Source: Trichococcus alkaliphilus | GTDB lineage: Bacteria; Bacillota; Bacilli; Lactobacillales; Aerococcaceae | Assembly: GCF_003008695.1 (NCBI RefSeq) | Contig: NZ_PXZT01000007.1 | Location: forward strand, 1-64,000 | Reading direction: 5' to 3' | Length of the DNA stretch: 64,000 bases | In this document: positions 45,353 to 64,000 of the stretch, in pieces | How positions within the stretch are numbered: the stretch's first letter is position 1 | How the letters are laid out: every line of letters begins with the position of its first letter | Position numbers and translations under genes: made by a program | The notes under the pieces: generated by a model | The model's database searches: none | What the model was told of the DNA's origin: nothing | Seen by the model: the letters and a program-made list of their open reading frames with translations, nothing else

Positions 45353-45395
45353 AAGAAAGTCGCTTTCGAATCCAGCAATAATTGAGTTCATTCAA

Positions 45396-45791: not shown

Positions 45792-45808
45792 TATGCAGCA
45801 CGCCTCCT

Positions 45809-47521: not shown

Positions 47522-47687
47522 TCCCAAACCCCTCCCGTAATTTCATGCACAAACACTTACTATTAATCGAATTTTAACATTTTTGTACATAAAAAACTAA
47601 CGGGGTCCCTTGGGCGATTTAGGATATAACAGAGAGTGTTGCTTGAAAAACTAAATTCATGAATTCAGGCGCCACCATGTTGCGTCC

Positions 47688-48437
47688 TCAATTAATAATT
47701 TCGCCTTTATTATTGGCCAATTTTTCACGCCACTGCCGAAGTTCCTCCGGCGTTTGTCGCAACCAATCGGTTACTTCGCCAACAATTTTTAAAGGTGCTT
47801 GCGAGCGATAGGAACGTGTCAGATTTCCCGGGAATTTCTTGTCTGTAACATTTGGGTCATTCTCAAATTCCCCTGTCGGTTCCACAATATAAATACGTTC
47901 CCTTCCATTTCCTTTTGCTAATGCGGCTGCAAGTCCTGCTCCACTGACCAAGGCGGTGAAATAAATGTGGTTCATTTTAAGTTCGGATTTGTAATTCGAT
48001 TCCCCTTTTGCTGTCAGTAGATCGCCAACCTGCAAGTCTGCTTTTGTCCCATGAAAAAAGGGGCCTGGGTCAGAAGTCGCAAGCTTATACGAATTTGACA
48101 AGTCAACGTTCTTTTTTGCCTTTTCAGAATCGGATAACGCCTCATAGCATTTAGCAATGTTCAAATATAACGATGGAAAAGCACTCTTAACTCCAGCATC
48201 ATTCAGTTTTAACGCAAACTGCAAAGATGTTTCGAACCATTTTAATTTGTCTGAACTATTTTTTTTATCTCGGGCTACATAATAAGCTGCAATGAATTTT
48301 TCGAAATCGTCTGTTGCTTCACTCCAGGCTTCAAGAAATAGCAAGCTCGCCTCTTCAGGTTTGCCGCTGTCTTCCATGCCCATACCCCGAAGAAGCAGTT
48401 GAATGATTTTGTTGTTGGGATCGAATTGATTATCCAT
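47688..48437 (-). CDS. arr: Rifampin ADP-ribosyltransferase (Arr) with extra N-terminal domain
   Basis: A 249-residue protein. The C-terminal 135 residues (about 115-249) are a complete Arr: FHGTKADLQVGDLL, MNHIYFTALVSGAGLAAALA, RIYIVEPTGEFENDPNVTDK and KFPGNLTRSYRS. Arr inactivates rifamycins by ADP-ribosylation of the C23 hydroxyl. Typical Arr enzymes are about 140 residues; here an N-terminal helical region (about 1-114) with a TPR-like pattern (YLNIAKCYEALSDSEKAKK) is fused on. Whether resistance is conferred is untested. The gene lies in an accessory stretch with alkD-, SRPBCC- and dehydrogenase-like genes. Confidence 0.88.
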   Translation of the reverse strand: MDNQFDPNNKIIQLLLRGMGMEDSGKPEEASLLFLEAWSEATDDFEKFIAAYYVARDKKNSSDKLKWFETSLQFALKLNDAGVKSAFPSLYLNIAKCYEALSDSEKAKKNVDLSNSYKLATSDPGPFFHGTKADLQVGDLLTAKGESNYKSELKMNHIYFTALVSGAGLAAALAKGNGRERIYIVEPTGEFENDPNVTDKKFPGNLTRSYRSQAPLKIVGEVTDWLRQTPEELRQWREKLANNKGEIIN

Positions 48438-48569
48438 CTTCTTTCACCTCTTAATTATTGAACCGCCAACTGAACTATACTGATGCCCTGCTCCTCAAAA
48501 AGCCACTGCATTTTGTAACGTATAAATGCAGCTTACAAAAGCTACGAAAGTGAGAATGCTGACTCTTAC

Positions 48570-49289
48570 TCACTTTTTCTTCTCTGTTTTCATGGCCTCT
48601 TGCTTCATTGGCTTTGGCATTTTTTCAATAGCATACCTTAATGCAGTTCTAGGCATTGTGTCCCGCTTGCTTAATACATACTGGTATACCTCATCTTCAT
48701 ACTTTGTGCATAAAGACTTCAGCATCCAGCCATACCCTTTTTGCACTAAATCCTCAGTATCCAATAATAAACTGTCGGCAATTTCGAATATATCGTCCTT
48801 AAATAGACCCTTTTTGGCTGGTATGATAAGCGATACAGCTGACGCCCGCCTAACCCATCTGTTTTGGGATTTTGTCCAATCTTTTAATTTTTCTATATAC
48901 CCTGGATACATTTCCAAGAATGTTCCAACAGTGTGGTTACAGAAAGTATCACAAGTTGCCCAGTTGGTCACATATTCATTTACCCATCTTTCGAACAGAG
49001 GAAAATCATCTTCAGTGTACTGTTTCTTGATCGCATATGTCCAATTGCAGGCAATGAAAGCTTCCTCCATCATTCCGGAAATCCACAGTTGTTCGCATAA
49101 ATCAAATATTTCTTTTTTTGAAAGCTTCTTGATGCTTTTAAATGCCTCTCTGGAAATTTTCGAGACTGTCATCGTTTTTACGCCATAGAACCTTACTTCT
49201 TCTTTAAAAAATCTTTTGCCGCTTTCCTTTGTCGTTTCGTCTGAATTATTGATTAGTTCCTGCCTTATCTGTTCGATTATGTTAGACAT
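48570..49289 (-). CDS. DNA alkylation repair protein (AlkD-like)
   Basis: A 239-residue HEAT-repeat DNA glycosylase of the AlkD family, which removes bulky or positively charged alkyl bases without base flipping. The ATG at 49289 follows GAGAGGGTGG. Visible family sequence includes RFYGVKTMTVSKISRE (about 28), WATCDTFCNHTVG (about 115), NRWVRRASAVSLIIPAKKG and KGYGWMLKSLCTKYEDEVYQYV. It stands alone. Codon use is more AT-rich than in the core genes to the left, as for its neighbours. Confidence 0.88.
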   Translation of the reverse strand: MSNIIEQIRQELINNSDETTKESGKRFFKEEVRFYGVKTMTVSKISREAFKSIKKLSKKEIFDLCEQLWISGMMEEAFIACNWTYAIKKQYTEDDFPLFERWVNEYVTNWATCDTFCNHTVGTFLEMYPGYIEKLKDWTKSQNRWVRRASAVSLIIPAKKGLFKDDIFEIADSLLLDTEDLVQKGYGWMLKSLCTKYEDEVYQYVLSKRDTMPRTALRYAIEKMPKPMKQEAMKTEKKK

Positions 49290-49426
49290 AGCCCACCACC
49301 CTCTCAAACTTTTACCCAATCTTTTTTATCAGTACGTTGAAGTAAGATCATTTCGCTTCATTATCTCAACACCGGTGATTTTAATCAACTTGTTGGGATT
49401 GTCCTTTTTTAAGTTTTCAAAAAAAA

Positions 49427-49474
49427 TAACGAAAAGCATTTACTTAAGCTTTTCGTTATTCCCGTTCTGTTTTT
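49427..49474 (-). terminator. Hairpin repeat copy 6; terminator of the SRPBCC gene region
   Basis: Perfect stem aataacgaaaagc/gcttttcgttatt with a 9-base loop; a diverged member of the family with the ttctgttttttc flank. It lies 99 bp past the SRPBCC stop. Confidence 0.75.
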
Positions 49475-49572
49475 TCCCGCATTGATGGTGGTTCAGAACT
49501 TTTAACCATCAATGCCATACGGCCAATCATAAAACACACTGCCTATAGAACAACAAATTTCCTCAATCGCGA

Positions 49573-50088
49573 CTAAGTTGACTGTTTTTCCAACAATTTA
49601 TCTAAACGCTCCCATGTCTCAGTGATACCACCTATCATGCCCGTATCGAGCAAACTTTTCAGCGCCTCAGCATCTTCGAGCTCCGTTTTACTGATAAGTT
49701 TCGTTTGATTGCCTAAATCCATGAAGTCCATCGTGATTTTACTGGCTGGCATATCAGGATCTACCCTTCCCGTCTTGTCAGAGAAGTAATCCATATATGC
49801 AATGCGTTCCGGTTCGACAATTTCTGTGTAGTTGGCTTTACCCCAATATACCATTCCGAATGTCTCTTGGCTGGGATCGGCTGACTGCATGCCATAATGC
49901 CATTCGCCACCTTCGCGAAAGTCCATCTTTGAATGCGGCAATTCAAAGCCGTGCGGGCCCCAAAATTCTTTTAGATATTCCGTGTCTGTAAACATCTTGA
50001 ATACTTTTTCCCTTGGAGCATCAAAAAGCCGTTCCATTATCAGTATCCGTTCATTTTCTATGTGCCAAATAAGCTGATTCTGTGACAT
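49573..50088 (-). CDS. SRPBCC (AHSA1-like) domain protein
   Basis: A 171-residue START-like protein. The ATG at 50088 follows GAGGAGG. LIMERLFDAPREKVFKMFTDTEYLKEFWGPHGF at the N-terminus (described in two parts: the RLFDAPREKVF strand and the WGPHGF turn) and GGITETWERLDKLLEK at the C-terminus are typical of AHSA1/YndB-type proteins, which bind hydrophobic ligands. The ligand is unknown. It is divergent from the sugar dehydrogenase gene. Confidence 0.85.
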   Translation of the reverse strand: MSQNQLIWHIENERILIMERLFDAPREKVFKMFTDTEYLKEFWGPHGFELPHSKMDFREGGEWHYGMQSADPSQETFGMVYWGKANYTEIVEPERIAYMDYFSDKTGRVDPDMPASKITMDFMDLGNQTKLISKTELEDAEALKSLLDTGMIGGITETWERLDKLLEKQST

Positions 50089-50296
50089 TGTCTTTCCTCC
50101 TCTATCAAAATGAAGCAATCAAAATGCAAAGGTGCTATCATTACTACACACCTATTGTAGAAGAAACAAAAAAAGAGTGTCAAATATTTAGGATTATTAT
50201 GGCAGGTAACATAAGTTCCACCGAATTATTTCATCTCGTCCTACCCTCGCAGTATAATGACCTTAAAGAGGCTTATTCGCGAAGGAGCGGAAAAAA

Positions 50297-51364
50297 ATGA
50301 AGAAAATCTTTTTTCTGGGGTTATCTGTGTCACTTCTATTAGCAGGTTGCTCGTCGCTAAAACAATCGCCAGCATCGGATAGCACTGAAGCAAGCAATCA
50401 GCATCGTGATGGAGCTGTGGAGTTAGCTGGAAATTTAGACGTGCCATGGTCAATTCAGAAGCATGAAGATGTTTTTTATATTAGTGAAAGACCGGGAAAT
50501 ATTGTAAGAATTGCAGGAAGTGAGTTAGAACGGCAAACAGTTCATTTAAGCGAAGACTTATCTGGTGGATCAGAGGCGGGATTACTTGGTTTTATCTTAG
50601 ACCCAAACTTTGAAGAAAATAATGAAGCTTTTGCCTATTATACTTATTTGAACGCAAAAGGAGCCTTTAATAGAATCGTCAAATTGCGTTTGAAAAATAA
50701 TGAATGGGCAGAAGTTGAAATATTGCTCGATCCACTTCCAGGAGGAAACTTTCATGACGGTGGCCGATTAGCCATCGGACCAGATAATAAATTGTATGTG
50801 ACCGTAGGAGATGCCCATAACCTCAATGAGGTTCAGGAATTAGATTCATTGAATGGGAAAATTTTAAGATTAAATCTCGATGGGACAATACCTGAAGACA
50901 ATCCATATGAAAGTAGCTATATTTTTAGCTATGGACACCGAAATCCACAAGGGCTAGTTTGGACTGCTGATGGGACAATGTACGCAAGTGAACATGGAAA
51001 TAATGCCAACGATGAAATTAATATAATCGAAGCAGGCAAAAATTATGGCTGGCCGCTTATTGAAGGAACAGAAGAACAGGACGGTATGGAGGGTCCGTTA
51101 TTTACCTCTGGTTCTGATGAAACTTGGGCTCCTTCTGGCATGGATGAGTGGAATAATCACTTATACGTAGCTGCATTGAGAGGGAGTGCTATTCTAGAGT
51201 TTGATTTAGAAAATCAAACTGTTCATTCTTTTATCGAAGACTATGGAAGAATAAGAGACGTTTTAATTGTTGGCGATGACCTATTTTTTATAACAAATAA
51301 CCTTGATGGTAGAGGTAATGGATCTTCCGATGATGATAAATTATATCGAATAGAATTAAAATAA
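50297..51364 (+). CDS. PQQ-dependent sugar dehydrogenase-like lipoprotein
   Basis: A 355-residue exported protein with lipobox LLAGC (Cys about 19). The domain (about 45-350) is the soluble aldose dehydrogenase (YliI/Asd, GSDH) six-bladed propeller. DVPWSIQKHEDVFYISERPGNI (start of the fold), NFHDGGRLAIGPDNKLYVTVGD, YGHRNPQGLVW and ASEHGNNANDEINII are hallmarks, and the His in FHDGG and GHRNPQG are active-site residues. These enzymes need PQQ, which this organism probably does not make, so it may use environmental PQQ or have another role. Confidence 0.88.
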   Translation: MKKIFFLGLSVSLLLAGCSSLKQSPASDSTEASNQHRDGAVELAGNLDVPWSIQKHEDVFYISERPGNIVRIAGSELERQTVHLSEDLSGGSEAGLLGFILDPNFEENNEAFAYYTYLNAKGAFNRIVKLRLKNNEWAEVEILLDPLPGGNFHDGGRLAIGPDNKLYVTVGDAHNLNEVQELDSLNGKILRLNLDGTIPEDNPYESSYIFSYGHRNPQGLVWTADGTMYASEHGNNANDEINIIEAGKNYGWPLIEGTEEQDGMEGPLFTSGSDETWAPSGMDEWNNHLYVAALRGSAILEFDLENQTVHSFIEDYGRIRDVLIVGDDLFFITNNLDGRGNGSSDDDKLYRIELK

Positions 51365-51447
51365 ATATGAATAATAGGAATTCCATATGAGAGTATTTAT
51401 TGTAGCTGCTCTCAACAAGTGGCACAGTTCTCAAGTAATTTCTTTGC

Positions 51448-51590
51448 ACGATGATCCGTAAAGCAAAAACAAAGCGGGAAGCCCGTCATTATGGGATTTC
51501 CGCTTTATCGGTTCTATTCTCTTTTCAAGCCATTTCTACAAACCGCTCAGTAATACCTTCATACCGGCATTTTCCTCAAAAAAATGCCCC
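51448..51590 (-). repeat. Hairpin repeat copy 7
   Basis: Stem aaagcgggaagccc/gggatttccgcttt around gtcattat. About 143 bases align with the copy at 33089-33236, including gca-aaaacaaagcgg before the hairpin and tatcg-ttctattctct after it, and a distal ATACC-TCATACC block. No intact minus-strand gene ends here, so it may mark a lost gene. Confidence 0.75.
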
Positions 51591-51713
51591 CTAAAAACGT
51601 GTTCTGATTCGCAAAATGTTCCGCCTAAGCTGCCAATCCCACACGGTCAAGAACAGGCCGTTTAGTGATTGTCCTCTTGGTACTCACCTTCTGGACGCGA
51701 ATCATCACACTCT

Positions 51714-51729
51714 CTTATTTATGATAAGC
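51714..51729 (-). other. Candidate SCC-type attachment core (rlmH-tail sequence)
   Basis: The minus strand reads GCTTATCATAAATAAG. In one frame this is Ala-Tyr-His-Lys-stop, the C-terminal tail of staphylococcal RlmH (OrfX), which is where SCC elements insert. The ten bases TATCATAAAT equal the staphylococcal att core as I recall it. Upstream on the minus strand the sequence does not encode RlmH, so this is an element end, not the gene. CTTAT and ATAAG also make it quasi-palindromic, as recombinase sites are. The orientation places the element at higher coordinates. Confidence 0.6.
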
Positions 51730-51817
51730 ATGTGCGTAACATTTTAAAAGGATATTTTCTCGGAACAGCCTTAACACGAAATTGTACCGTATTTTTTCAT
51801 TTTGAAATTTTATAGGC

Positions 51818-52513
51818 TCATTTTGGTTTATTTAAAAGTACTCCCACTTCTTCCGCAACAAATTCTGCCTCCACAAGATTAGTCATTACTTTTATGTATT
51901 TTTTAATGTCATCAACACCATATTCAGGATGTTTTTGCACCATATGAGTTTGGTCGTTTCCCAGCCATGATGATGCCTTAGAAATACTTTGAAGTAAGGG
52001 ATTTTCTAATCTTTTGATTGTTTCTCCTAATGGTTCACTTAATATTGAGTCTTTTTCTGTTCCATTATCCAGGTTTTTTGTAACATACTCTTTTACAAAA
52101 AACTCTAAAGCTTTTCTGTATCCCATACCAGCAAGTTCATTTAAATCAGATTCCTCTGCTTTTTGAGATTGAATTAGTATTCTTAAAAAATCAGGATACT
52201 CTTGCTGAACCTTTTCTGGAATATTTATATCATTAGAAAAATTGGGATAAGTATTTTGATAATGAGTATCAAATGAGCCACTATAATTATCCACACAAAA
52301 ATATATATGCATAGATAAATTGTTACAATTAAGACATTCTGTTGTAATAGATAAAACATTCTGTCTTGTATTCATTGATCCAGTTAAAGGTTCTTGCCTA
52401 CCTGTCTGATTACAATATGGACATTTAGTCATTACATCGACAGTACAGGTATCTTCAAATATATTTTTATTGTCATTTGGATCAATACGAAAATATTGCA
52501 CGCTCATTTCCAT
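51818..52513 (-). CDS. DUF4145 domain protein with zinc ribbon
   Basis: A 231-residue protein. The N-terminal quarter has a zinc ribbon (CPYCNQTGR, then CLNCNN; Cys near 31, 34, 60 and 63). The C-terminal part (about 115-230) is the helical DUF4145 domain with GYRKALEFFVKEYVTK as its core, ending in TNLVEAEFVAEEVG. DUF4145 occurs alone or attached to restriction endonuclease and helicase modules and is common near restriction-modification loci. It follows hsdS by 116 bp on the same strand and is AT-rich like hsdS. A defence-linked role is likely but unproven. Confidence 0.8.
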   Translation of the reverse strand: MEMSVQYFRIDPNDNKNIFEDTCTVDVMTKCPYCNQTGRQEPLTGSMNTRQNVLSITTECLNCNNLSMHIYFCVDNYSGSFDTHYQNTYPNFSNDINIPEKVQQEYPDFLRILIQSQKAEESDLNELAGMGYRKALEFFVKEYVTKNLDNGTEKDSILSEPLGETIKRLENPLLQSISKASSWLGNDQTHMVQKHPEYGVDDIKKYIKVMTNLVEAEFVAEEVGVLLNKPK

Positions 52514-52629
52514 GTAAAGGAATACCTCTTTTCGTTTAATTTTATAATTAAGAAAATATAGACCCCTGAATAATTTGTGTAGGTCCGGGCAAAATATCCC
52601 CTAACTACTTTCTATCACGTCATTTTTTA

Positions 52630-53781
52630 TTACACAAACATCTGTTGCATAAGTCCTTTTTTCTGTTGCTTCAATGCTTCTATTTTTCGTATTGATATTT
52701 CAATCTTTATATCTAGAGCAGAAAGAACATCAGCAATCTTTTTTTGCTCATCTTCACAAGGTAATCTAATATTTTCCTTTTTATAATCTTTGAAATATAT
52801 GTGCGGTATAGTACTCCCTGACACATATGACAAAAAATTAATAATTTGAAGCCTAAAATACAGAAATTTAATATCCACTGTATCTGTAGGAAGCAAATAC
52901 CCCATCGTTCCTAAGACAGAAGATTTACCTTTGCAGTACCTAATTCTACCTACACCTGCTCCATCTTTTATAATAGAGACATACTCATTTTCCTGATCGT
53001 ATTTGTCAATATTAAGTACCAAAGAATTAGCATCATACAAAGGGTATATTTCTTCACCGTTATATTCTTTGAAAGAATCCAAACTAATGTTAGATGATTT
53101 ATATAAACATATCTCCTCTAACGTAATCTCTCTCCAGTCTGGATAATCGTTTCCATCATCGTCTTTGAACCGCAATTCTTGATTGAAGATTTTTTGTAAC
53201 ATGGCCTTCTTTAGTTCTTTGTAGTTATATAATTGTCGCTGATGAAGAGCGATAGTAATGTCTAACTGATTGAAGAAAGTACCTAGTTTAGTTTGCTCTT
53301 CCAATGGTGGAAGATTTATACCTGTTGAAAGAATGTTGCTGTTGTAAAGTCTCTTAATCGTGCTCCCTTCCAAGCCAGACCATTTAACAACTTGATAAAA
53401 TTGCTTTAAGAACGAATTATCAATTAAGGACTTATCTGTTTTTAGCCAAACAATATTTGAATCCTGATAATAGGCTTTTTCACCTTCATAAACAACGGTT
53501 CTACCAATTGTTCCAGAAGCAGACATCAGAATATCTCCAATTTCGGGATATGGATAATTTTTTTTATATTCTTCGAATAATTCATTTGGAATAAAAGAAT
53601 CCGGGCTGCCTCCAAAAGTTCCAATTTTATAAAAAGGAATATCACCAAATGCAGTTGTCTGATCTTTAAAAATCCTCTTGCACATAACAACTGAACCAAC
53701 CTCACCTAACTTACGCTGTTCCCAAGTGTCAGCAAAGCCTTTAAAGCGAATGGTAGGAGTTTTGTGTTTTTTACTACTCAT
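52630..53781 (-). CDS. hsdS: Type I restriction-modification specificity subunit HsdS
   Basis: A 383-residue HsdS that gives the type I complex its DNA sequence specificity. The frame is open to 53796, but I prefer the ATG at 53781, whose ATGAGTAG overlaps the hsdM stop. Two target recognition domains (about 10-170 and 205-355) alternate with conserved helices (LPPLEEQTKLGTFFNQLD at about 165 and LPCEDEQKKIADVLSALD at about 345). The opening RFKGFADTWEQRKLGEV is typical of Lactobacillales HsdS. It is intact and more AT-rich than hsdM and hsdR, as is common for exchanged specificity genes. No inverted repeats for phase variation are seen. Confidence 0.92.
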   Translation of the reverse strand: MSSKKHKTPTIRFKGFADTWEQRKLGEVGSVVMCKRIFKDQTTAFGDIPFYKIGTFGGSPDSFIPNELFEEYKKNYPYPEIGDILMSASGTIGRTVVYEGEKAYYQDSNIVWLKTDKSLIDNSFLKQFYQVVKWSGLEGSTIKRLYNSNILSTGINLPPLEEQTKLGTFFNQLDITIALHQRQLYNYKELKKAMLQKIFNQELRFKDDDGNDYPDWREITLEEICLYKSSNISLDSFKEYNGEEIYPLYDANSLVLNIDKYDQENEYVSIIKDGAGVGRIRYCKGKSSVLGTMGYLLPTDTVDIKFLYFRLQIINFLSYVSGSTIPHIYFKDYKKENIRLPCEDEQKKIADVLSALDIKIEISIRKIEALKQQKKGLMQQMFV

Positions 53782-55402
53782 TCCCATCACCAACATTCAT
53801 CAATTTCGCTAGTGCATTCTGCAATTCTCGGTCTACTTTTTCATTCGTTCCATGCAATTCTCCAAACATCGCAAACAGTTCTTTCTCCGCCTGCAGGATT
53901 TCTTTTTGGGTCTGTTGGATTGCGGTTGCAACTTCATCAAGCGAGATTTGTTCTTCTTCTTCAAACGTATCCACGTAACGAGGGATGTTCAGGTTAAAGT
54001 CATTCTCTTTGATTTCATCCAGAGTCGCTACATAGCTGTATTTGTCGACCGTTTCTCTTTTTTCGTAGGCAGAAACAATCTTTTCCACGTGTTCGTCCGT
54101 CAAGTTGTTTTGGTTCTTGGCTTTTTCGAAGTCATTTGAAGCATCGATGAAGAGAACCGTGTTGTCGTTTTGACGGCACTTCTTGAAGACTAGGATACAG
54201 GTTGGGATGCTGGTTCCGTAGAACACGTTAGCCGGTAATCCGATGACGGCATCCAAATAGTTCTTTTCTTCAATCAGGTACTGACGGATGGTCCCTTCAG
54301 CTGCGCCACGGAATAGGACACCATGCGGTAGGACAACTGCCATCGTACCATTGTCATCCAAGTGATAGATCATATGTTGCACAAAAGCAAAGTCCGCCTT
54401 CGATTTCGGAGCTAGTTTGCCGTAGCTACTGAAGCGTTCATCATCCAAAAACTTCGCATCGGCACTCCAGTTGGCGCTGTAGGGTGGATTGGCAACTACG
54501 GCCTCAAAGCGCATGTCCTCAAAATGTGGATGCTCCAACGTATCACCCAATTCTATGTCAAAGTCCTGAAAGGATACTTCATGCAGCAACATGTTCATGC
54601 GGGCTAAGTTGTAAGTGGTACTGTTAAGCTCTTGACCATAGTAGTGACGAACCTTTGCTTCATCCCCTATCCGAAGCAACAACGAACCAGAGCCGCACGT
54701 TGGGTCAAAGACATTTTTCAGGTCTGTTTTGTTGAGTGTAACGATTTTCGCTAAAATTTTGGACACTTGTTGAGGTGTGTAGAACTCGCCAGCTTTTTTA
54801 CCTGCATTGGCCGCAAACTGTCCAATCAGATACTCATAGGCATCCCCCAGCACATCAATTTCCGCATCTTCATGCATGAAGTCGATCCCATTCAGGTGAA
54901 TCATGACTTTTGCGATGAGGCTAGAACGGGCTTTTACCGAATTACCCAATCTGGATGAAGATAGATCCATGTCATCAAACAGGTGATTGAAATCCTCTTG
55001 GCTGTCATGCCCTAAAGTGGATTCTTCGATTTTGCTGATGGCTTTCTCCAACACTTCCACGTCAAAATTTCCTTGTTCGCCCTTTTCGATTTCTGCCACC
55101 ATAGCCGAGAAGAGGTCCTGCGGTTCGATGACATAGCCGATTTGATCTATCAATTCCGCCTTCAACCCTTCACGTAGTTCTTCATCTTCAAAAGCTTTTT
55201 GATAAGAGATTTTGTCTACTGCGAGAAAATCATCAACCACTATTTTCTCTGTCTTTTCGGACAGGTAACGGTAAAAGATGAGTCCCAGAATGTAGTTACG
55301 GAATTCACTGGCATCCATCGTGCCTCTTAGATCATTGGCGATGGCCCATAGTTTCTTGTGTAGTTCTGCTTGCTGTGTTTTTTGCTTTTCAGTAATGCTC
55401 AT
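53774..55402 (-). CDS. hsdM: Type I restriction-modification methyltransferase HsdM
   Basis: A 542-residue N6-adenine methyltransferase. An N-terminal HsdM helical domain is at about 5-160. The catalytic domain has the SAM motif FDPTCGSGSLLLRIG (about 217-231) and the catalytic motif VVANPPYSANW (about 286-296). Full length, no frameshift. It follows hsdR by 27 bp and overlaps hsdS by eight bases, the normal coupling for such operons. Confidence 0.95.
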   Translation of the reverse strand: MSITEKQKTQQAELHKKLWAIANDLRGTMDASEFRNYILGLIFYRYLSEKTEKIVVDDFLAVDKISYQKAFEDEELREGLKAELIDQIGYVIEPQDLFSAMVAEIEKGEQGNFDVEVLEKAISKIEESTLGHDSQEDFNHLFDDMDLSSSRLGNSVKARSSLIAKVMIHLNGIDFMHEDAEIDVLGDAYEYLIGQFAANAGKKAGEFYTPQQVSKILAKIVTLNKTDLKNVFDPTCGSGSLLLRIGDEAKVRHYYGQELNSTTYNLARMNMLLHEVSFQDFDIELGDTLEHPHFEDMRFEAVVANPPYSANWSADAKFLDDERFSSYGKLAPKSKADFAFVQHMIYHLDDNGTMAVVLPHGVLFRGAAEGTIRQYLIEEKNYLDAVIGLPANVFYGTSIPTCILVFKKCRQNDNTVLFIDASNDFEKAKNQNNLTDEHVEKIVSAYEKRETVDKYSYVATLDEIKENDFNLNIPRYVDTFEEEEQISLDEVATAIQQTQKEILQAEKELFAMFGELHGTNEKVDRELQNALAKLMNVGDGNE

Positions 55403-55429
55403 GTGAGTCTCCCTTTTTCGTTTTCTTTC

Positions 55430-58204
55430 TTATACTGACATAAATTTCCGGGTATTTTCTAGGACAAATTCAAAAATACGATTGATTTTCTTACGTTTTT
55501 TCATGAAACTGTCGCTGATTTGATTTGAAACGCGTTCTCGATTTAGACTGCCACTGTATTCGTATTCCGCCAGAAATTCATTGACAATAGCCGGCTCCAG
55601 TTCCACATCTTGCGCAAAGTCGTAGATTTCCCCTTCACGTTCCTCTTCTTCGAAGGCGTTGTAAGCTTCGTCAACGTTGCTGTCCTTTTCAAGCGCTGGC
55701 AAAACGGTATCCAGGAACTTGCGAATCAGATCTGCTTTCAAGCGCAAGTCTTCATTGTCTGCCTGGTTCAATAGGCGGTGGATGGTTGCCACGTCCTTCT
55801 CGCGTTCGGCATCGTCCGCCAGATTGATGTTGCGGATGAGGTTCAGGATGTAGCTGACATTGATGGTGTCCGTTTGGATGACTTCGATCGCAAAGTCGAT
55901 GTTGTCGAGGATGGAAACTTCCTCACCCTTCTTTTTCTTTTTCACCTTATCATAGATGGCGAAATACTTACTCTTAAAGTCCTGGTAGTTCTGTTCGACT
56001 ATCCCGAGGGTATCTTCCAAAAATTCAAATTCATCGAATGTCCGCATCTTCAAAAGCAATTTCGACAGCTCCCTAAAGAGTACCACAAATTGATACTGGT
56101 CTTCTTCAGATTCCAATTGATCGACCGATTCGGGTGTCGGGGAAAGTTGCAGTAAGGACGCCAATGCTGAACGGAATTCGGCTAGGTATTCCCCATAGCT
56201 CGCCATCAGGACGATGTTGGTGTCGTTCGTTTTTGAATACAGTTTGATGGCTTCATCCGTTTGGTACTTCAGGTTGCGGTAGCACACGATGTTTCCATAG
56301 GGTTTGGTTTCTTTTTCGATCCGGTTGGTCCGTGAGTATGCTTGCAGCAAGGTGTGGTATTTCAGATTCCGATCCACGTACAATGTGTTGAGAGGCTTGC
56401 TGTCGAAACCCGTCAGAAACATGTCCACCACGATGAGGATGTCCAGTTTTTCGCCAGACACACCTTTCTTGATGCGTTTGGACACATCCGCAAAGTAGCC
56501 GCTGAAATTATCCGTTGCGAAATTCGTGTTGAAGGCTTCATTGTAGTCTTTCATGATTCGTTCTAGGCTGTCCCTTGAGTGCTCCGTTGTGATGTCTTCA
56601 TTGCCGGGCTCGTTCGCGCCATAGGTGAAGATGCTGGACACAGTGACGCCTTTTGCGTGTTTCTTGAACAGGTCATAGTATTTGATCGCCATCTTGATGC
56701 TTTGGACAGTGAAGATAGCGGTGTATTGCTGGTCTTTGGTCTTCTTGCGGTGATTCTTCAGGATATGCTGAGTGATGTCCTCCAGACGTTCATCTGCCAT
56801 CCACACTTCATTCGTGTTGATGCCTGCAACTCGTTCCTGATCCTCTTCGTCGAACTGGCCCCGGAAGGTGCTGATGTATTCCACCGAGAAACCCAATACA
56901 TTCTCATCCCGGATGGCATCCTTGATCAGATAGCTATGCAGACATCTTTGGAAAATGTCCGCTGTCACCCGGCCGTCTTGACTAGGGTTCTCCGGAAAAC
57001 GAGGGGTTCCCGTGAAGCCGAAATACTGGGCATTCTTGAAGTGCTTATGGATCAACTTGTGCATCTCACCAAATTGGGTCCGGTGGCATTCGTCAATGAT
57101 GAACACAACCCGATCTTCCCGGTAGCTATCGATTACCTTACGGCCAGATTTGATGGCATTAGCCATCTTTTGGATGGTCGTCAGAATCAACGGTTTGGTC
57201 TTGTCCCCCATCTGTTTCAACAGTGTGTATGTGTTGTCGGTCATGTCCACCGAATCTGCTTCAAATTTGTTGAACTCCGCGAGTGTCTGAGAATCTAGGT
57301 CTCTTCTGTCCACTAGGAAGAACACTTTTTCGATGCCTTCCTCCTGAGCGATGATCTGACTAGCCTTAAATGAGGTCAGTGTTTTACCACTGCCTGTCGT
57401 ATGCCAGATGTATCCGTTGTTCCGCGTTTCCAATGCTTGCCGAACCAATGCTTCCACTGCATAGACTTGATAGGGACGCATCACCATGAGGATCTTGTCC
57501 GTTTCGTTCAGTACCATGTAGCGGGCTATCATCTTCGCCAAATGGCATTTCTCCATGAAGCTGTCCGCAAATTCATTCAATAGGTTGATCCGGTTGTTGT
57601 CCACATCGGACCAGTAGAACATCTGGCTTTTCAGGATTTCTCCGTCGCTGTTGGAGAAATAGCGGGTTTCTTGGCTGTTGCTGATGATGAAGACTTGGAT
57701 GTAGCGGAACAGTCCTGTGTAGGTATGTTTCCGATAGCGCATGATTTGGTTGAATGCTTCCGTCATGTCTACGCCACTTCGTTTCAGTTCCACTTGCACG
57801 AGCGGCAGACCATTGATCAGGATGGTCACGTCGTACCGATTGGCGTACTTGCCCTCCATGCTGATCTGATTGGTTACCTGGAAAGTGTTTTTGCACCATT
57901 CTTTGGTGTTGAATAGCTCTAAGTAGAGGTTCTTGCCGTTGTCGCGTTTTAGCAGCACCTTGTCCCGCAGGATCTTGGCACTGTCGAAGATGCTCTTGCC
58001 GTTGATCTGTGTCATCAGACGGTCAAATTCTTTATCTGTTAAGGGCTCATCCCCTATGTTGGCGCTGTTTCGTGTTTCCAGAATGGTACGGAAGTTCGCA
58101 ATCATCGTTGCTTCGCTTTTCACTTCCGGAACCCATTGGTAGCCCTTTGAGACTAGTTGTTCGATTAGTTTGTTCTCTAATGCTGATTCACTCTGATAGC
58201 CCAT
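55430..58204 (-). CDS. hsdR: Type I restriction enzyme HsdR
   Basis: A 924-residue endonuclease/translocase subunit. The ATG at 58204 follows GGAGGAGAAGGG; the frame runs 17 codons further up without support. The PD-(D/E)xK nuclease (about 1-200) has Asp in [10 protein letters not shown] and Glu/Lys in VQVELKR. The helicase has Walker A TTGSGKT (269-275), the DECH box ([14 protein letters not shown]), FGFTGTPRF and QAYSRTNRI (motif VI). The C-terminal assembly domain is complete. First gene of the hsdR-hsdM-hsdS operon, the only order on one strand here. Expected to cut unmodified DNA. Confidence 0.95.
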
Positions 58205-58580
58205 TCTATCCCTTCTCCTCCGGTACGCAATGTCGCTTGATTGCCTTTTTTTCATTATCTCAATATTCCGTCAGTTATTCAATGTTATTCTGGCTATTAG
58301 GCGTGTCCTGATGCCGAATCTACTGGAACGAAAAAAAAAATAGGGTTCTTCAGATTGATTGATTACTTTTTGTCTCAGATCAACTGCCCTTTTCCGTCCC
58401 CTGTGCCCGGCCTCCTAGCCCGCACGTTTTTCTTATCTTTATTGAATTTCCCCGTTTTCCCGTTAATTTTAGCGGTTAGAGCTGCTTTTTTCATTTACCT
58501 TGGCGGTATGCTCTTTTGTAAAACTAACATTATTTTTATGGGAAAACGGGATTATTATAGTTTATATGTGTTAGTTACTT
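58205..58580. other. Spacer between hsdR and the ccr-like genes, left part
   Basis: AT-rich sequence upstream of hsdR, which must include its promoter. A 78-codon plus-strand frame with TTG start and no ribosome site is judged chance. Nothing else is seen. Confidence 0.4.
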
Positions 58581-58589
58581 ATCTATATT

Positions 58590-58726
58590 GAATCTTGTCA
58601 TCCCCGTTTGCTTCCCGCACGCTTGGGGGCGGCTGGGAAGCTAAGGGATTTCCTCATTCGGGAGAGGGTGAAGAGCTAGGGTTTCCTCACCACCATCTGG
58701 GTACCACCTGCAACTAAGACAAGTGG
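58590..58726. other. Possible structured RNA or recombination region downstream of the ccrB-like gene
   Basis: GC-rich block. An outer inverted pair (cttgtc 58596-58601 with gacaag near 58718-58723), a 7-bp hairpin gcttccc/gggaagc (58610-58642), and two direct repeats agggatttcctca and agggtttcctcac are present. No known ncRNA core is recognised. See findings. Confidence 0.4.
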
Positions 58727-58806
58727 GAAAGCAAAGTCCTACGGCTAGCCAGATCGGAAAGACTAGACATTCAGCAACTCCCGATTGTTGTAGGTTCTCC
58801 ATTCCT

Positions 58807-60468
58807 TCACAGTATCAGACAAAACTCCTGAGTCAAAACAAAAGAGCCATCACCCTCGGTAGGTGATGACTCTTTTTCAGTGGCGTGATTCAGTTTTCTG
58901 ACGAAGTCCTGGCTAAACACCAGATGGAGCGTCACTTCTTTACTCTTCTTATCGAACGTAATCTTTTCGATGAACACTTTGTAGATTTCTTTCAAATCTT
59001 TGTTTTGTTTGCCGTCAATGCTTCTACCGAGATGCTCAAGTGTTCTTTTCGCTTCTTCAAAGGAGACACTTTGGGCATCCCTACTTAGCTCCCTGTGCAG
59101 TTGCCGTTCCTTTTGCACAAGTTTCTGCTTCTCTTGTTCCAGTTGTTTGATCCGCTTATTCAGATCCGTAGCTATTTCAGGCGCTTCAAGCATCAAATCC
59201 AAAAGCTTCTCGGTACTACTTCCTTTTTGTTCGATCTCCACCTTGATCAGTTCCAACTCTCTTTTGACAGGTTTTTCTCGATCCTGCAGTTGTTGGTTCA
59301 TTCGTTCCACTACTCTTTCCAATACTTCGGGTTGTGCCACAACTTCCTTTAGATTTTCGGCGACCTTGCTTTCGGCTAGCTCAGCCTGAATGCTATTAGC
59401 GTGGCACACAGAGGCTCCCTTATTTCGGAATTGGCTGCAGCTGTAGTACCGGATCTTTTTCTTTGTTCCATCCTTCAATTTGTTGTAGACATTGTTTATC
59501 ACCATCGAAGATCCGCATTCAGGGCATCGAATCAGCCCTGTCAGAACGCTGGTGCCAGTTTTGTTCCAAGAGGGATGCTTACTGCTGGCCTTCAACTTCA
59601 GCTGAACCTTTTGCCACAGCGCCTCATCCACAATGGCTTCATGCTGTCCCTCGACAACGAAAGCATTCTCACTGAGTCCCTTCCTACGTTTGTCCGCCCA
59701 CTTTTCGTATTTATTATATTGGATTTTGCCTATGTATGTCTGGTTGTAAAGAATGTCTTTGACCGCAATCGTACTAAACGGGTTCCCTTGTTTGGTCTTG
59801 TACCCGGACCGATTGAAGCTGTTTGCTATTGCCCGGTATCCCTTTCCAGTAGCCGCCTCTTGAAAAATCATGTGAATCAGTTTAGCTTCTTCTTTGTTGA
59901 CTTGCAGAACTTTTTTGCCGTTTTCGTTTTCTACATTATCGTAACCAAGGATTCTGCCGCCATTCCAACCGCCATCAAAGGCTCTTTTAGTCATACCGAG
60001 TTTCACGTTTTCTGCGATTTGGTTTCGTTCCAATTCGTTGACCGATGCCATTATCTGCAACATGAAGCGTCCGGTGGTGGTATCTACCTGAAACTTCTCG
60101 CTGATGCTGTAAAAAGCAATGTCTTGTTTCTGTAAGACGTTTACGATTTCCAGCAGGTTCATCAGGTTTCTGGCAACCCGACTGATTTTCCAAACGACTA
60201 CGGCATCGAACTGACCGCTTTCCGCATCCTGAAGTAGTTGCTGCATCTCAGGACGCCCTTTAATGTTCTTCCCGCTCTTGCCTCGATCGACGTACACTCC
60301 AACGCATTCCATGTTCTCCCGCTGGCAGTACTCTTGGATCGTTTGGATTTGTGCATCAATGGAGTAGCCTTCTTCCGCTTGCTCCTGCGTACTAACACGC
60401 ACGTACCCTACACAGCGCTTCTTACGGAACGTTTGTGAAGGTGTGCTGTTCATCAGTAGTTGTTCCAT
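58807..60468 (-). CDS. CcrB-like large serine recombinase
   Basis: A 553-residue large serine recombinase, from the ATG at 60468 after AAAGGAG. The catalytic domain opens with CVGYVRVSTQEQAEEGYSI (Ser26), like staphylococcal CcrB. The recombinase domain follows (RAFDGGWNGGRILGY at about 162, NPFSTIAVKDILYNQTYIG at about 220), then the zinc ribbon (IRCPECGSSM with YYSCSQFRNKGASVC) and a coiled coil (about 380-480). CcrB of SCC is 542 residues. Its last 25 or so codons run through a terminator-like hairpin. Gene order ccrA-ccrB on one strand matches SCC. Confidence 0.9.
   Translation of the reverse strand: MEQLLMNSTPSQTFRKKRCVGYVRVSTQEQAEEGYSIDAQIQTIQEYCQRENMECVGVYVDRGKSGKNIKGRPEMQQLLQDAESGQFDAVVVWKISRVARNLMNLLEIVNVLQKQDIAFYSISEKFQVDTTTGRFMLQIMASVNELERNQIAENVKLGMTKRAFDGGWNGGRILGYDNVENENGKKVLQVNKEEAKLIHMIFQEAATGKGYRAIANSFNRSGYKTKQGNPFSTIAVKDILYNQTYIGKIQYNKYEKWADKRRKGLSENAFVVEGQHEAIVDEALWQKVQLKLKASSKHPSWNKTGTSVLTGLIRCPECGSSMVINNVYNKLKDGTKKKIRYYSCSQFRNKGASVCHANSIQAELAESKVAENLKEVVAQPEVLERVVERMNQQLQDREKPVKRELELIKVEIEQKGSSTEKLLDLMLEAPEIATDLNKRIKQLEQEKQKLVQKERQLHRELSRDAQSVSFEEAKRTLEHLGRSIDGKQNKDLKEIYKVFIEKITFDKKSKEVTLHLVFSQDFVRKLNHATEKESSPTEGDGSFVLTQEFCLIL
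58841..58876 (-). terminator. Terminator-like hairpin inside the ccrB-like 3-prime end
   Basis: On the minus strand, GAGTCATCACC and GGTGATGGCTC form an 11-bp stem followed by TTTTGTTTT, about 34 bases before the stop codon. Confidence 0.7.
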
Positions 60469-60485
60469 GCCCTCACTCCTTTTTC

Positions 60486-61898
60486 TTACAAAATGTTTGT
60501 CTTCCATCCTTTTAGGTAAATGCCAAGTACTCTCTTTTGGTTATCTATTTCAATCCGATCAATGACTTCCTGAAAAAACTGGTATTGTTGCACAGTCGGC
60601 ATCTGTTGTACAATTCCAATGTTTACTATTCGTTCAGTCAATTCTTTCAAATGGACCGTATCAGGAACCTCATCTTTCGGCTGGACAGCTTCATCCTCTG
60701 ATTTGTACTGATTTAACCGCTTCAACTCATCCGCTAGTTGTTTAGCTGAAAACGTGCCTCTTTCAAAAGCCTCCAATGCTGTCTGTTTTCGGCTCTCGAT
60801 ACTTCCTATTTTTTTGGCGTGTTTTTCTTTTTTTTCTGTGAATTTTTGTTGTAGCTTACTTTGAATCCGCTCTAATCGTTCTTTATCGTTTAAAAAGGCC
60901 GCTACTGCAGTCACTACCTGTATTTCTGTCTTCTCAGCTCTCAGATGGATTCCCTCACAGCCAATTTTTCCGTTTGAGCTATTTGAGGAGCAGCCGTAGT
61001 AGTACAACTTTTTGTATCCCCTACTTTTTTGGTTGGGGCTCACGATGTGGATGGAAAGGTTGTTACCGCAATAGGGGCATTTAATTTTCTTTTGTAGCAG
61101 ATTCCGCCTAAAATCTTTCTTCACCACATGCCTAGATTTCTGAATTTGTTGAACAGCAGCCTGCATCTCCGGCGTTACAATCGGTGAATGGCTTCCCTGC
61201 ACTCGACCAAATTCATTTTCGATGTAACCAGAGTAGAACGGATTCGTGAGGATATTCCTTACGTTGTGCACCTTGAATGGGTTACCACGAAACAATACTC
61301 CTTTTGAAGAGAGACGGGAGCAAATTTTTTTATAGCCGCTGCCATTTATGTACAGATTGTAGACCGTTCTAACCGTTTCAGCTTCATCATCTAGGATTAT
61401 TATCTTATCCTTCGTATAGTATCGGTAGCCAAAAGGAACACGCGCTGACAAATGGAAACCCATTTCATGTTTTTTTCGGAGCCCAATTCGCTGATTCTCC
61501 GAAATCAATTCCCTTTGAAGTTGCGCGACACTGCCCACCACAGAAATCTGAAATCTGGCCATGGAATCACCTGTTGCAGTAATCGGATCGGAAATGCTGA
61601 TGATGGTTACATCGTACTGGATGCAGAAATCGTACAGGTCCAGCAAATCAGAAACGTTTCGACTGATTCGGTCTAGACGCCACACGTACAAAAAATCAAC
61701 CGCTTTGGTTGCGATGCTTTCTTTCATTAAAGAAAAGCCCATACGCTCACTATTCCCCCCACTCGCCTTATCGTAAAAAATACGTTCCAATCGGTGGCTT
61801 CGTTTGTCGGCTTCACTGCGGATGATGTCTTCCTGCCAAGCAAGACTAGCTTGTTTCGTGGTTGATTGCCTTACATATCCGATTGCTTTACTTTTCAT
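60486..61898 (-). CDS. CcrA-like large serine recombinase
   Basis: A 470-residue large serine recombinase with the opening MKSKAIGYVRQSTTKQASL (Ser11). The GYxRQSTTKQxSL pattern is the CcrA signature as I recall it; CcrA of SCC is 449 residues. The catalytic domain has LYVWRLDRISRNVSDLLDL (about 71) and VAQLQRELISENQRIGLRK. The recombinase domain runs about 165-275. The zinc ribbon is KCPYCGNNLS and YYGCSSN with a later Cys. The gene ends 17 bp before the CcrB-like start. With that partner it would excise and integrate the element. Confidence 0.9.
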   Translation of the reverse strand: MKSKAIGYVRQSTTKQASLAWQEDIIRSEADKRSHRLERIFYDKASGGNSERMGFSLMKESIATKAVDFLYVWRLDRISRNVSDLLDLYDFCIQYDVTIISISDPITATGDSMARFQISVVGSVAQLQRELISENQRIGLRKKHEMGFHLSARVPFGYRYYTKDKIIILDDEAETVRTVYNLYINGSGYKKICSRLSSKGVLFRGNPFKVHNVRNILTNPFYSGYIENEFGRVQGSHSPIVTPEMQAAVQQIQKSRHVVKKDFRRNLLQKKIKCPYCGNNLSIHIVSPNQKSRGYKKLYYYGCSSNSSNGKIGCEGIHLRAEKTEIQVVTAVAAFLNDKERLERIQSKLQQKFTEKKEKHAKKIGSIESRKQTALEAFERGTFSAKQLADELKRLNQYKSEDEAVQPKDEVPDTVHLKELTERIVNIGIVQQMPTVQQYQFFQEVIDRIEIDNQKRVLGIYLKGWKTNIL

Positions 61899-61972
61899 AG
61901 TATAAGATGCCCTCGCTACTTACTAGCGGGGCATCCATCACTCTCCTTCAACTGAAATCAAACCATTAGCTG
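61899..61972 (-). promoter_or_regulatory. ccrA-like leader: palindrome and 16-codon peptide frame
   Basis: An inverted repeat, gatgccctcgcta (61906-61918) with tagcggggcatc (61924-61935), one-base bulge, sits right before the ccrA-like ATG. On the minus strand a 16-codon frame (MDAPLVSSEGILYYEK) begins after AAGGAG and overlaps the ccrA-like start, which suggests coupled translation or a recombinase binding site. Confidence 0.45.
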
Positions 61973-62068
61973 CTACATCTTAATTTCTTCTACATGGTCC
62001 AAATGATGCCAAAGAGCAAGCAATTGCTCCGCTACGACATCAACAAACACATCCACGTCTTCAGTCAT
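61973..62068 (-). CDS. 31-residue protein between cch2-like and ccrA-like genes
   Basis: A short ORF with GGAGAAG before its ATG, 25 bp after the DUF927 gene. The product is acidic and helical (MTEDVDVFVDVVAEQLLALW, then HHLDHVEEIKM). In staphylococcal SCC a small protein of about 100 residues lies at this spot; this is much shorter and not recognisably the same. It may be a remnant or an independent small protein. Confidence 0.45.
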   Translation of the reverse strand: MTEDVDVFVDVVAEQLLALWHHLDHVEEIKM

Positions 62069-62093
62069 TGTTCTCTTCTCCTTCATTACGTAT

Positions 62094-63899
62094 TTATTCG
62101 ATCTCATCGGCGGGATTGCCTACACAGTGTTCTTCCTCGGAAAAATCATCTGGCCTAAAGGAGTAAGATGTTCCCGTCGATGGAAGCATCAGAGATGGGG
62201 GTTCTACGAAAAGATGATGGTACTCTCGAGGAACGACTATGCTGTACAGCGGGGTTTTCTTCCTACCGATCCCTTCAACATCCAAATTTTTTCTCACCGT
62301 TTGCCTTCCTGACTCGGTAACGAGCAGACCCTTTTTTGCCCAATCTTTCAGAATTACTTTAGCATCCTGGTATTTAAGCTCTGTCATCATGGGCTCGAAG
62401 TGTAATTTCAGTATGGAAACAACGATTTCAGTTTCAAAATTAGCTGATCGCTTCGTCGAAATTAGCCCTATCACTTCGTAAGGTATACGTCCCTGATTAT
62501 CCCGGACAAGTTTCGCCTGATGCTCAACGAGATATTGCAACACATCATCGAACGCTTTTGTACCATGATCGCGATCATCGAAATTGTCCTTATCGTTTTC
62601 AAGTAACATCGCTCGGAGAGCATCGACGTTTATCTCAATTCCGGTATGAGCCGCCAACAAAGCTGCAGTGGCCATTATAGCTGCAAGTTTTATCGAAACC
62701 CGACGCGTCGTATCTGAAGCAGGCATTTGTTCGAGCAACAACTTCCGTTGACGTTCAAACTCTTCATCAATTGAATGAAGCCCTACTTCGAACAGGCGAG
62801 TAACAAAATGGGGCAGTAGATTCCCGTAATGGTTTGAAATAGCGCTTTTGATGTTCTCCGATTGTGCTGCATCTCTGGTCCATTGAACATGGGAGAACTC
62901 TAAGATCCTTACTCGGAGTCCGAGGTTATTTGCCAGCCTATTGAAGATCGACAACTCGCCTGTTGATAGAATGACCGTTGACCAATGTGCACTTTCGCGT
63001 AAACCACCATCTTTTGTGGATCGATCCTTCTGCTTGCCTTCTGCTAAAGAATACAACAACGCCGTTAAGTCAACAGTCCGCGACTGAGAAAGCTCGTCGA
63101 AGCAGATCGGGATGCCGTTTACGCCATCCAAAGCGCTCATCATGGAGTTGATAGTCGCATTCCAAGATTTGAGCAACCCCTTATTCGTGGAGGTCGGTGC
63201 ACCCGCCACACTTAATGCCAACATGGCCGCCGTCGTTTTGCCGCTTGATGATTGTCCATTCAAGGCAACGAAGAGGGTCTTTAAGTCAGTGTGCTTCGAC
63301 TCAAGATATGCGACAATGGGTGCTGTACACCCAAGCACAACTGCCAATTCCAACGGAATGTGTCCTTGAATATGTGTGCGGTACATGTTCAGCCACGCTT
63401 TCAGAGACCCTTTTGGAAATACATTTAACTTTGCACTTTCTGACAAAGAGTAACCTCTTTCTGGGATTGCTTTTGCATGGAAGAAAACCGGCTCGTCGCC
63501 AGTTTCCCCCCACCCAAACTGATTAAAAACGTTTTCCACCTGAGCATGCGCTCTACTTGCCAACAGAGCTTCCGTAACTTGACGCTTATTGGCCATTGTT
63601 ATATCGAGACCATACTGTATAAGTTGTTCGCTTCTCTGGCTTGTTAGCTGATCACTAGAAATCCACTGCGTTTCAGTTTTCTGCGTACTAACTCTTCGGT
63701 ATTCCAGCTCGAGGGATTCAACCCCAGTAGTTCGGTCAACCCGAATGCTTTTTACCCGTGCAAAATCGGCTATTTTCATGTATTTATCGGTTTCTTTACC
63801 GCGAACCAAGATTCCTTCTTCTCTGTCGATGCAAAATCGTCCGAACAACAGCCTTGAAGAATTATGCGTAGGTGTAGGCGTCAACTCATCTCTATCCAT
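62094..63899 (-). CDS. DUF927-domain ATPase/helicase (Cch2-like)
   Basis: A 601-residue protein of the DUF927 family. The ATG at 63899 follows GGGGAA and overlaps the stop of an upstream frame; earlier in-frame starts are weaker. The P-loop is GQSSSGKT (215-222), Walker B-like ICFDELSQ follows, and STGELSIFNR fits sensor 1. SCC elements carry Cch2 (about 590 residues, DUF927) beside ccrAB; it is an MCM-like, self-loading helicase that may replicate the excised circle. Size, order and strand agree here. The extended N-terminus and C-terminus resemble Cch2 in length only, by memory. Confidence 0.85.
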   Translation of the reverse strand: MDRDELTPTPTHNSSRLLFGRFCIDREEGILVRGKETDKYMKIADFARVKSIRVDRTTGVESLELEYRRVSTQKTETQWISSDQLTSQRSEQLIQYGLDITMANKRQVTEALLASRAHAQVENVFNQFGWGETGDEPVFFHAKAIPERGYSLSESAKLNVFPKGSLKAWLNMYRTHIQGHIPLELAVVLGCTAPIVAYLESKHTDLKTLFVALNGQSSSGKTTAAMLALSVAGAPTSTNKGLLKSWNATINSMMSALDGVNGIPICFDELSQSRTVDLTALLYSLAEGKQKDRSTKDGGLRESAHWSTVILSTGELSIFNRLANNLGLRVRILEFSHVQWTRDAAQSENIKSAISNHYGNLLPHFVTRLFEVGLHSIDEEFERQRKLLLEQMPASDTTRRVSIKLAAIMATAALLAAHTGIEINVDALRAMLLENDKDNFDDRDHGTKAFDDVLQYLVEHQAKLVRDNQGRIPYEVIGLISTKRSANFETEIVVSILKLHFEPMMTELKYQDAKVILKDWAKKGLLVTESGRQTVRKNLDVEGIGRKKTPLYSIVVPREYHHLFVEPPSLMLPSTGTSYSFRPDDFSEEEHCVGNPADEIE

Positions 63900-63999
63900 T
63901 AAAAGATTCCCCATACCCCATATCCGGCAGCTCAAATTCTTCGCGTTCAGTGTGTGGCTCTAAGTGGTATAAGGACTCATCAAAATTAACGCCACCATC
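63892..63999 (-). CDS. C-terminal part of a gene cut by the window edge
   Basis: An open frame runs in from the right edge and ends at TAG 63894-63892, overlapping the start of the DUF927 gene in ATGGATAG. The visible 35 residues are acidic (NFDESLYHLEPHTEREEF, then ELPDMGYGESFNG). The stop/start overlap suggests a coupled upstream gene, possibly a replication or primase-type protein as in SCC. Identity cannot be told. Confidence 0.5.
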   Translation of the reverse strand, partial: DGGVNFDESLYHLEPHTEREEFELPDMGYGESFNG

Positions 64000-64000
64000 A

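Follow-up and report, generated by a model that had tools for sequence, protein, structure and literature searches.

Methicillin resistance of staphylococci travels on the staphylococcal cassette chromosome (SCC), whose cargo can include restriction-modification (R-M) genes. Comparable elements are described from other hosts. The Enterococcus cassette chromosome (ECC), for which circularisation and transfer were demonstrated, was published in 2018 (PMC6222049), and PolA-SSB islands located mostly downstream of rlmH were described across Bacillota in 2023 (PMC10061031); Table 1 of the latter includes Trichococcus pasteurii DSM 2381, with the helicase given as COG3378. We analysed a stretch of 64,000 bases from Trichococcus alkaliphilus (the window), which forms the beginning of a contig of 132,467 bases in a genome of 2.96 Mb. 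The region 51714-69022 of this contig (17.3 kb) is considered, with a probability of about 0.9, to be an SCC/ECC-type cassette-chromosome element that is complete, has probably kept its mobility and is inserted in the Trichococcus chromosome. A preliminary description of the window, made from the sequence alone, had seen in it a widening of the SCC range beyond staphylococci. This was overstated, since ECC (PMC6222049) and the Bacillota rlmH islands, that of T. pasteurii included (PMC10061031), precede it and the kind is already known. What is new is the Trichococcus lineage, its common ancestry with a Carnobacterium cassette, the presence of two ccrAB lineages in one genus and the count of rlmH linkage. 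Among the open-access papers searched, no title or abstract opening describes this Trichococcus lineage or the Carnobacterium one.

The gene block announced by the preliminary description (a DUF927 protein, a tiny ORF, CcrA-like and CcrB-like recombinases, then a type I R-M operon) is present on the minus strand. The order of transcription is Cch, a 44-residue ORF, CcrA, CcrB, HsdR, HsdM, HsdS and a 231-residue protein (Table 1). The DUF927 ATPase had been given 601 residues and the Cch2 type; it reaches 613 residues with a TTG start and is of the Cch1 type, NF047345 being its top NCBIfam model (316 bits for a cut-off of 700). It contains the Walker A motif GQSSSGKT and its best solved structure is 5dgk ("Active helicase", E 4.9e-68), which we take to be the Cch of SCCmec. 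The length of 470 residues stands for CcrA, whereas the 553 residues proposed for CcrB correspond to a later ATG, the first one giving 566. Resolvase, Recombinase and zinc-ribbon domains (Pfam) were detected on both recombinases. The CcrA model ranks first for CcrA, before CcrB (115 bits) and CcrC (93 bits), and the CcrB model ranks first for CcrB, before CcrC (296 bits) and CcrA (127 bits); the equivalog cut-offs of 700 and 900 bits, respectively, are not reached. The motif RQSTTKQ starts at residue 10 of CcrA and RVSTQEQ at residue 37 of CcrB.

The gene rlmH gives a single match in the whole genome. It lies on the minus strand, 5 kb to the right of the window (contig 69005-69484), on the side and strand predicted beforehand. 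Attachment (att) sites were searched with a 19-base pattern from Trichococcus rlmH ends, allowing at most 3 mismatches, in the window and in contig 60001-80000 (locus L002), which together span 80 kb. Each scan gave one match, on the minus strand, for 0.01 expected: 51714-51732 with 1 mismatch in the window, and 69004-69022 with 3 mismatches in L002, the latter being the rlmH end itself. The two copies are direct repeats of 19 bp with 4 differences, 17.3 kb apart. The left-end core of the preliminary description and the second core that it placed at the 3' end of rlmH were both recovered, but the rlmH copy reads TACCACAA and not TATCATAA as at 51714. The cores differ at two positions, the central CA being common to both, and in rlmH the changes fall at the third bases of the Tyr and His codons and are synonymous. 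The core TATCATAA is found in 8 of 12 Trichococcus rlmH ends. The att at 51714 forms an imperfect dyad (GTTACGC-ACAT-GCTTATC) and is 97% identical over 36 bp to the att at the distal end of the ccr element in T. palustris. Its inner arm, GTTACGCACATGC, recurs with changes in T. palustris, T. paludicola and two other genomes (G010 and G012; genomes compared are numbered G and loci L, those of T. ilyis and T. palustris being L048 and L049), and at an internal site of G005 it makes a clear dyad, TATGATACGC-ACAT-GCGTATCATA. The attR and attECC of ECC carry such a dyad and also the TATCATAA core (PMC6222049). The motif TATGATAA alone was uninformative as an att query (6 matches in the window for 2.6 expected).

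Matches to rlmH were obtained in 12 of the 13 genomes of the genus. In G001 and G008 no more than about 55 bases separate rlmH from sequence that matches this genome from position 49475 leftward (91-92% identical over more than 4 kb), and therefore 19.5 kb are extra here; neither genome has a CcrB match at E <= 1e-60. The extra sequence is composed of the 17.3-kb element and of a 2.2-kb block (49476-51713) containing a 181-residue ORF and a gene of the glucose/sorbosone dehydrogenase family. This block, absent from G001 and G008, is whole in G010 and present in large part in G004, beyond an att-like site; it may have entered this genome at an earlier time, or G001 and G008 may have lost it. 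The match with G010 (93.7% identical over 45000-51586) ends at an att-like site. In G012, what comes immediately after rlmH matches the stretch beyond the far att of this element (89% over 168 bases). As G012 is itself composite, with three att-like sites, G001 and G008 give the cleaner evidence of empty sites. The lower G+C content of the element (41.3%, with 44.9% and 48.5% in the adjoining flanks) also speaks for a cassette, although ccrAB-cch taken alone has 44.8%. The Trichococcus rlmH end is thus a variable island site of the genus. In G009 a ccr-less DUF960-RadC-95-residue ORF block, 89% identical to the window element, is located downstream of rlmH (L031 14263-15544) and is a cassette remnant. 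In G008 an additional 25-codon rlmH 3' end with a terminator block is located away from the rlmH contig (L030 9638-9712 = G008:C19:287637-287711), possibly an old cassette end or a secondary site.

By analogy with SCC and ECC, CcrA and CcrB would pair the two att sites and cut at the shared central CA of TA(T/C)CA(T/C)AA, which would free a circle and restore the rlmH 3' end. Integration would be the reverse reaction and would leave the RlmH protein unchanged, because the junction recreates the last codons (HAYHK-stop). Replication or conversion of the circle, which might then be transferred, would fall to the Cch helicase, perhaps together with a small, possibly OB-fold protein whose gene lies just upstream. 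The cargo is, from its family matches, a type I R-M system, presumably active. It is much alike in the T. ilyis cassette for HsdR (91%) and HsdM (89%), but identity drops to 31% between the specificity subunits (window 52630-53796 and L048 17392-18615), the pattern that an exchange of target-recognition domains would give.

The recombinases were placed in two trees (a quick one of 115 rows and a careful one of 44 chosen rows), ORFs of fewer than 420 residues being dropped from both. As anticipated in the preliminary description, both proteins cluster with Ccr. In the quick tree, for which the program warned of long branches, CcrA of the window belongs to a CcrA clade of 21 rows and CcrB to a clade of 21 rows of staphylococcal and Lactobacillales CcrB, each with an SH-aLRT value of 100. 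In the careful tree, where the outgroup does not form one side of any branch (one row is on the wrong side), the clade of staphylococcal and Lactobacillales CcrB has 23 rows (100/100). Within it, CcrB of the window groups with T. ilyis, T. palustris and Carnobacterium jeotgali (100/100), and those of T. paludicola and T. pasteurii fall with the Vagococcus and Enterococcus proteins (100/99), so that the genus holds two ccrAB lineages. This tree did not resolve the basal branching of the clade, nor with it the place of the staphylococci. The quick tree had nested staphylococcal CcrB inside Lactobacillales (supports of 90 and 85); given the base of the careful tree, this is kept as a speculative reading only. 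Identities with staphylococcal proteins are 39-41% for CcrB and 28-30% for CcrA, and the nearest relative outside the genus among the loci retrieved is C. jeotgali (CcrB 60%). The likely route of exchange with staphylococci suggested by the preliminary description is thus unsupported.

The genomic context of this family was surveyed with an alignment of five CcrB proteins as query against genome contigs; of 542 loci, the 80 best were taken. The retrieved flank contains rlmH in 33 of these loci, although in two of them (L077 and L082) the match is partial and lies where the contig or the locus stops. For 22 further loci the genomes were searched, and rlmH is on the same contig within about 31 kb in 17, the identity of the contig being verified by its length; linkage was not seen in L056, L058, L061, L063 and L122. 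Three Trichococcus loci (L048, L049, L051) are also linked, and in L052 (T. pasteurii) rlmH is on another contig than ccr. In total, 53 of the 80 loci are linked to rlmH and six are without shown linkage, the count covering 59. In the family of the host, 9 of 76 genomes have a CcrB match (E <= 1e-60). Five of them are Trichococcus, and in each of the four others rlmH is within 0.4-10.5 kb. The CcrB-like protein of G062 falls outside the CcrAB clade; this genome has two near-complete rlmH genes 67 kb apart (G062:C1 745437 and 812387), the nearer one 8 kb from the ccr-like gene. In Levilactobacillus huananensis a weak 48-residue rlmH match was observed beyond ccrB (L057 15593-15733). In the order of the host, Lactobacillales, CcrA matches (E <= 1e-25) occur in 26 of 395 genomes; the rows, read by eye, show CcrA and CcrB side by side in 15 of these, which represent 8 genera and 5 families.

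The locus has the features by which cassette chromosomes are recognised: ccrAB genes, insertion at the 3' end of rlmH, flanking att direct repeats and a Cch-type helicase beside ccr. With SCC (ccrAB and DUF927 Cch) it shares the site, the TATCATAA core (PMC6222049) and the ccrAB-Cch set, together with DUF960, DUF1643 and, in part, RadC genes. Gene order was read in 5 of 10 staphylococcal or mammaliicoccal loci (L058, L060, L062, L064 and L071). In each of them DUF960 and DUF1643 come after ccrB, as does RadC in L058 and L064, whereas in Trichococcus the three genes are all upstream of cch, in the order DUF960-RadC-DUF1643. They are not named in the main text of PMC7581432, and their link with SCC is drawn solely from the comparison of these loci. 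The Trichococcus ccr genes are codirectional with rlmH, whereas the two are convergent in the five staphylococcal loci where rlmH was placed; a clean split of orientation between staphylococci and Lactobacillales was ruled out by G048 and G067, which belong to the host's family and are convergent. In the strict sense, which supposes ccr genes near those of staphylococci and a staphylococcal host, the element is not an SCC, since the identities are low and the host is a Trichococcus. ECC resembles the element by ccrAB, the rlmH 3' end, the TATCATAA att with a dyad at one end, a variable cargo and a lactic acid bacterial host (PMC6222049). CcrB is 44% identical to that of E. mundtii (ECC), which belongs to the other sub-branch, and the window proteins form a separate branch of the CcrB tree and so are not ccrAB_Ent (ccrAB of the enterococcal lineage). 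The ECC-like sub-branch is itself represented within the genus, in T. paludicola and T. pasteurii. The PolA-SSB islands have in common with the element the rlmH site, large serine recombinases, a helicase, R-M genes and the genus (PMC10061031); the T. pasteurii contig of that report is of the other Trichococcus ccrAB lineage (L052), and against its COG3378 helicase the window element has a DUF927 Cch.

The closest organisation was found in C. jeotgali MS3 (L050/L136). The order is the same (DUF960, RadC, 95-residue ORF, DUF1643, 354-residue ORF, possible OB-fold ORF, Cch, CcrA, CcrB), and rlmH is 12.8 kb away in the orientation seen in Trichococcus. It differs by a second RadC gene before DUF960, and no hsd match was obtained in the stretch retrieved. 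The Trichococcus and Carnobacterium cassettes have a common ancestor. With a cassette that agrees with SCC in site, recombinase pair and helicase type, an environmental lactic acid bacterium offers harmless hosts for studies of Ccr chemistry, and the Trichococcus cassette adds branches for rooting the SCC recombinases.

A block of 139 bases just after rlmH contains a hairpin with a T run (-23.5 kcal/mol, z -5.3). It is repeated at 51456-51589 (82% identical) and partially at four places between 32020 and 37693, with no further match in the genome at E <= 0.001. The six copies of this terminator-like repeat (hairpin AAAGCGGAAAGCC...GGCTTTCCGCTTT and flanks) all stand downstream of rlmH, none of them farther than 37 kb from it. 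Behind rlmH the block is present in G000, G003, G005 and G009, which have the window-type lineage or its remnant, and absent in G004 and G006, where the other ccrAB lineage occurs. In G005 the first island after rlmH is without ccr, and the block recurs at an internal att before the ccr island. From these few genomes the block is taken as carried by the window-type lineage; it was probably captured from a host and would keep a terminator behind rlmH after insertion.

These observations can be joined in a broader reading, which we hold only tentatively and, as a whole, at somewhat less than even odds. Staphylococcal SCC would be a single branch, with a long stem, in a family of ccrAB cassettes that has otherwise been sampled only from Lactobacillales (Trichococcus with two separate lineages, Carnobacterium, Vagococcus, Enterococcus, Levilactobacillus, Lentilactobacillus and two more genera of the host's family), and this family would lie within Bacillota-wide rlmH-linked recombinases. 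The ccrAB machinery would be older than the staphylococci, which perhaps acquired it from lactic acid bacteria, and the window-type lineage would carry at its entry side its own copy of a host rlmH terminator, so that insertion leaves rlmH expression undisturbed. In Levilactobacillus huananensis a weak 48-residue rlmH match was observed beyond ccrB (L057 15593-15733).

Several observations weigh against a complete and mobile cassette. The scores of Cch, CcrA and CcrB are all far below the NCBIfam equivalog cut-offs, the conserved genes are arranged otherwise than in the inspected staphylococcal loci, and the long-branch warnings of the tree program include the place where the CcrA groups meet. 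The terminator block that follows rlmH is present at both ends, which is not what a simple insertion gives. Because the cores differ at two positions (TATCATAA and TACCACAA), the att pair may now work poorly or not at all. The cassette could be decayed or immobilised, with intact ccr and cch and a drifted att pair, and now be a fixed island kept for its restriction system. The rlmH core that departs from the majority of Trichococcus rlmH ends, the composite left side with its further 2.2-kb block and the remnant in G009, where ccrB gives no match, would agree with such a history. However, the core ORFs are full length with their catalytic motifs, the central CA is conserved in both cores, and, of the close ccrAB relatives, T. 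ilyis carries another HsdS and T. palustris has no hsd match in the stretch retrieved, which suggests recent exchange. We regard decay as unlikely, though it has to be reckoned with seriously.

Two other explanations concern the nature of the island and its point of entry. Both recombinases match PHROG 95 "integrase", and the helicase also matches the pathogenicity-island protein 8tch and the phage primase/helicase PHROG 8841, as would be expected of a phage-like or ICE-like island with generic large serine integrases located at rlmH by chance. This is very improbable: among the ORFs of the 17.3 kb, several of which are without any assignment, none fell into a structural, packaging or conjugation family, CcrA and CcrB are in tandem and in their own clades, and the rlmH linkage recurs among the related loci. 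Insertion could also have occurred at a secondary TATCATAA site about 270 bp downstream of rlmH (68728-68735), beyond the rlmH terminator. The core octamer is there in the right orientation and the terminator block separates it from rlmH, but outside the octamer the flanks fail to match the att sequence in register, chance alone would give TATSATAA 1.3 times in 20 kb, and the 19-bp att was matched only at 51714 and 69004. The internal att of T. palustris, moreover, shows the same order of att then terminator. Entry at this octamer is improbable, and a cassette-chromosome element delimited by the att copies at 51714 and 69004 is preferred.

Table 1. Features of the cassette element (contig positions; the window ends at 64,000).
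Feature	Position	Strand	Evidence or remark
Distal att	51714..51732	-	CATGCTTATCATAAATAAG, preceded by element-side arm GTTACGCA (imperfect dyad)
231-residue cargo protein, function unassigned	51818..52513	-	PHROG 1305 "DNA binding protein" 2.7e-28
HsdS, type I specificity subunit	52630..53796	-	PF01420 1.6e-43; PADLOC Specificity_I 4.6e-84
HsdM, type I methyltransferase	53774..55402	-	TIGR00497 469 bits, above cut-off
HsdR, type I restriction endonuclease	55430..58255	-	TIGR00348 474 bits, above cut-off; PADLOC REase_I 1053 bits
CcrB large serine recombinase, 566 residues from first ATG	58807..60507	-	NCBIfam CcrB 485 bits
CcrA large serine recombinase, 470 residues	60486..61898	-	NCBIfam CcrA 261 bits
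44-residue ORF between cch and ccrA, function unassigned	61973..62107	-	ORF call
Cch, DUF927 helicase (Cch1 type), 613 residues with TTG start	62094..63935	-	PF06048 3.6e-40; HTH_56 3.3e-17
Possible OB-fold ORF, 175 residues	63892-64419	-	
354-residue ORF	64864-65928	-	
DUF1643 gene	66028-66549	-	
95-residue ORF	66730-67017	-	
RadC gene	67129-67629	-	
DUF960 gene	67646-67951	-	
56- and 106-residue ORFs	68099-68586	-	
Terminator block	68870-69008	-	
rlmH	69005-69484	-	holds second att copy 69004-69022

Among the remaining genes, the 231-residue protein has no Pfam family above cut-off. The 354-, 175-, 106- and 95-residue ORFs have no PADLOC match, and the sole Pfam match of the 106-residue ORF is ScpA, below cut-off. 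Upstream of cch no polymerase family was found, only the 354-residue ORF and the possible OB-fold protein. For the T. palustris homologue of the latter, the structural model has five strands with a low-confidence mean pLDDT of 59.6. No Foldseek match was obtained at E <= 0.001, the top one being a ribosomal protein (E 0.012, probability 0.20) and OB-like matches (PrgE, Cdc13 OB4, SSBs) having E values of 0.015-0.11. Given the low-confidence model and the lack of a significant match, the OB fold is only a suggestion. As OB-fold partners adjoin SCC-type helicases (PMC10061031), a single-strand-binding role is a reasonable guess for this protein. Finally, T. ilyis (L048 8054-8482) and T. palustris (L049 7993-8457) have an ORF of 142-154 residues between cch and ccrA. 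In the window this ORF is missing and only the 44-residue ORF was found there, with a 28-residue match at the equivalent place in both species.

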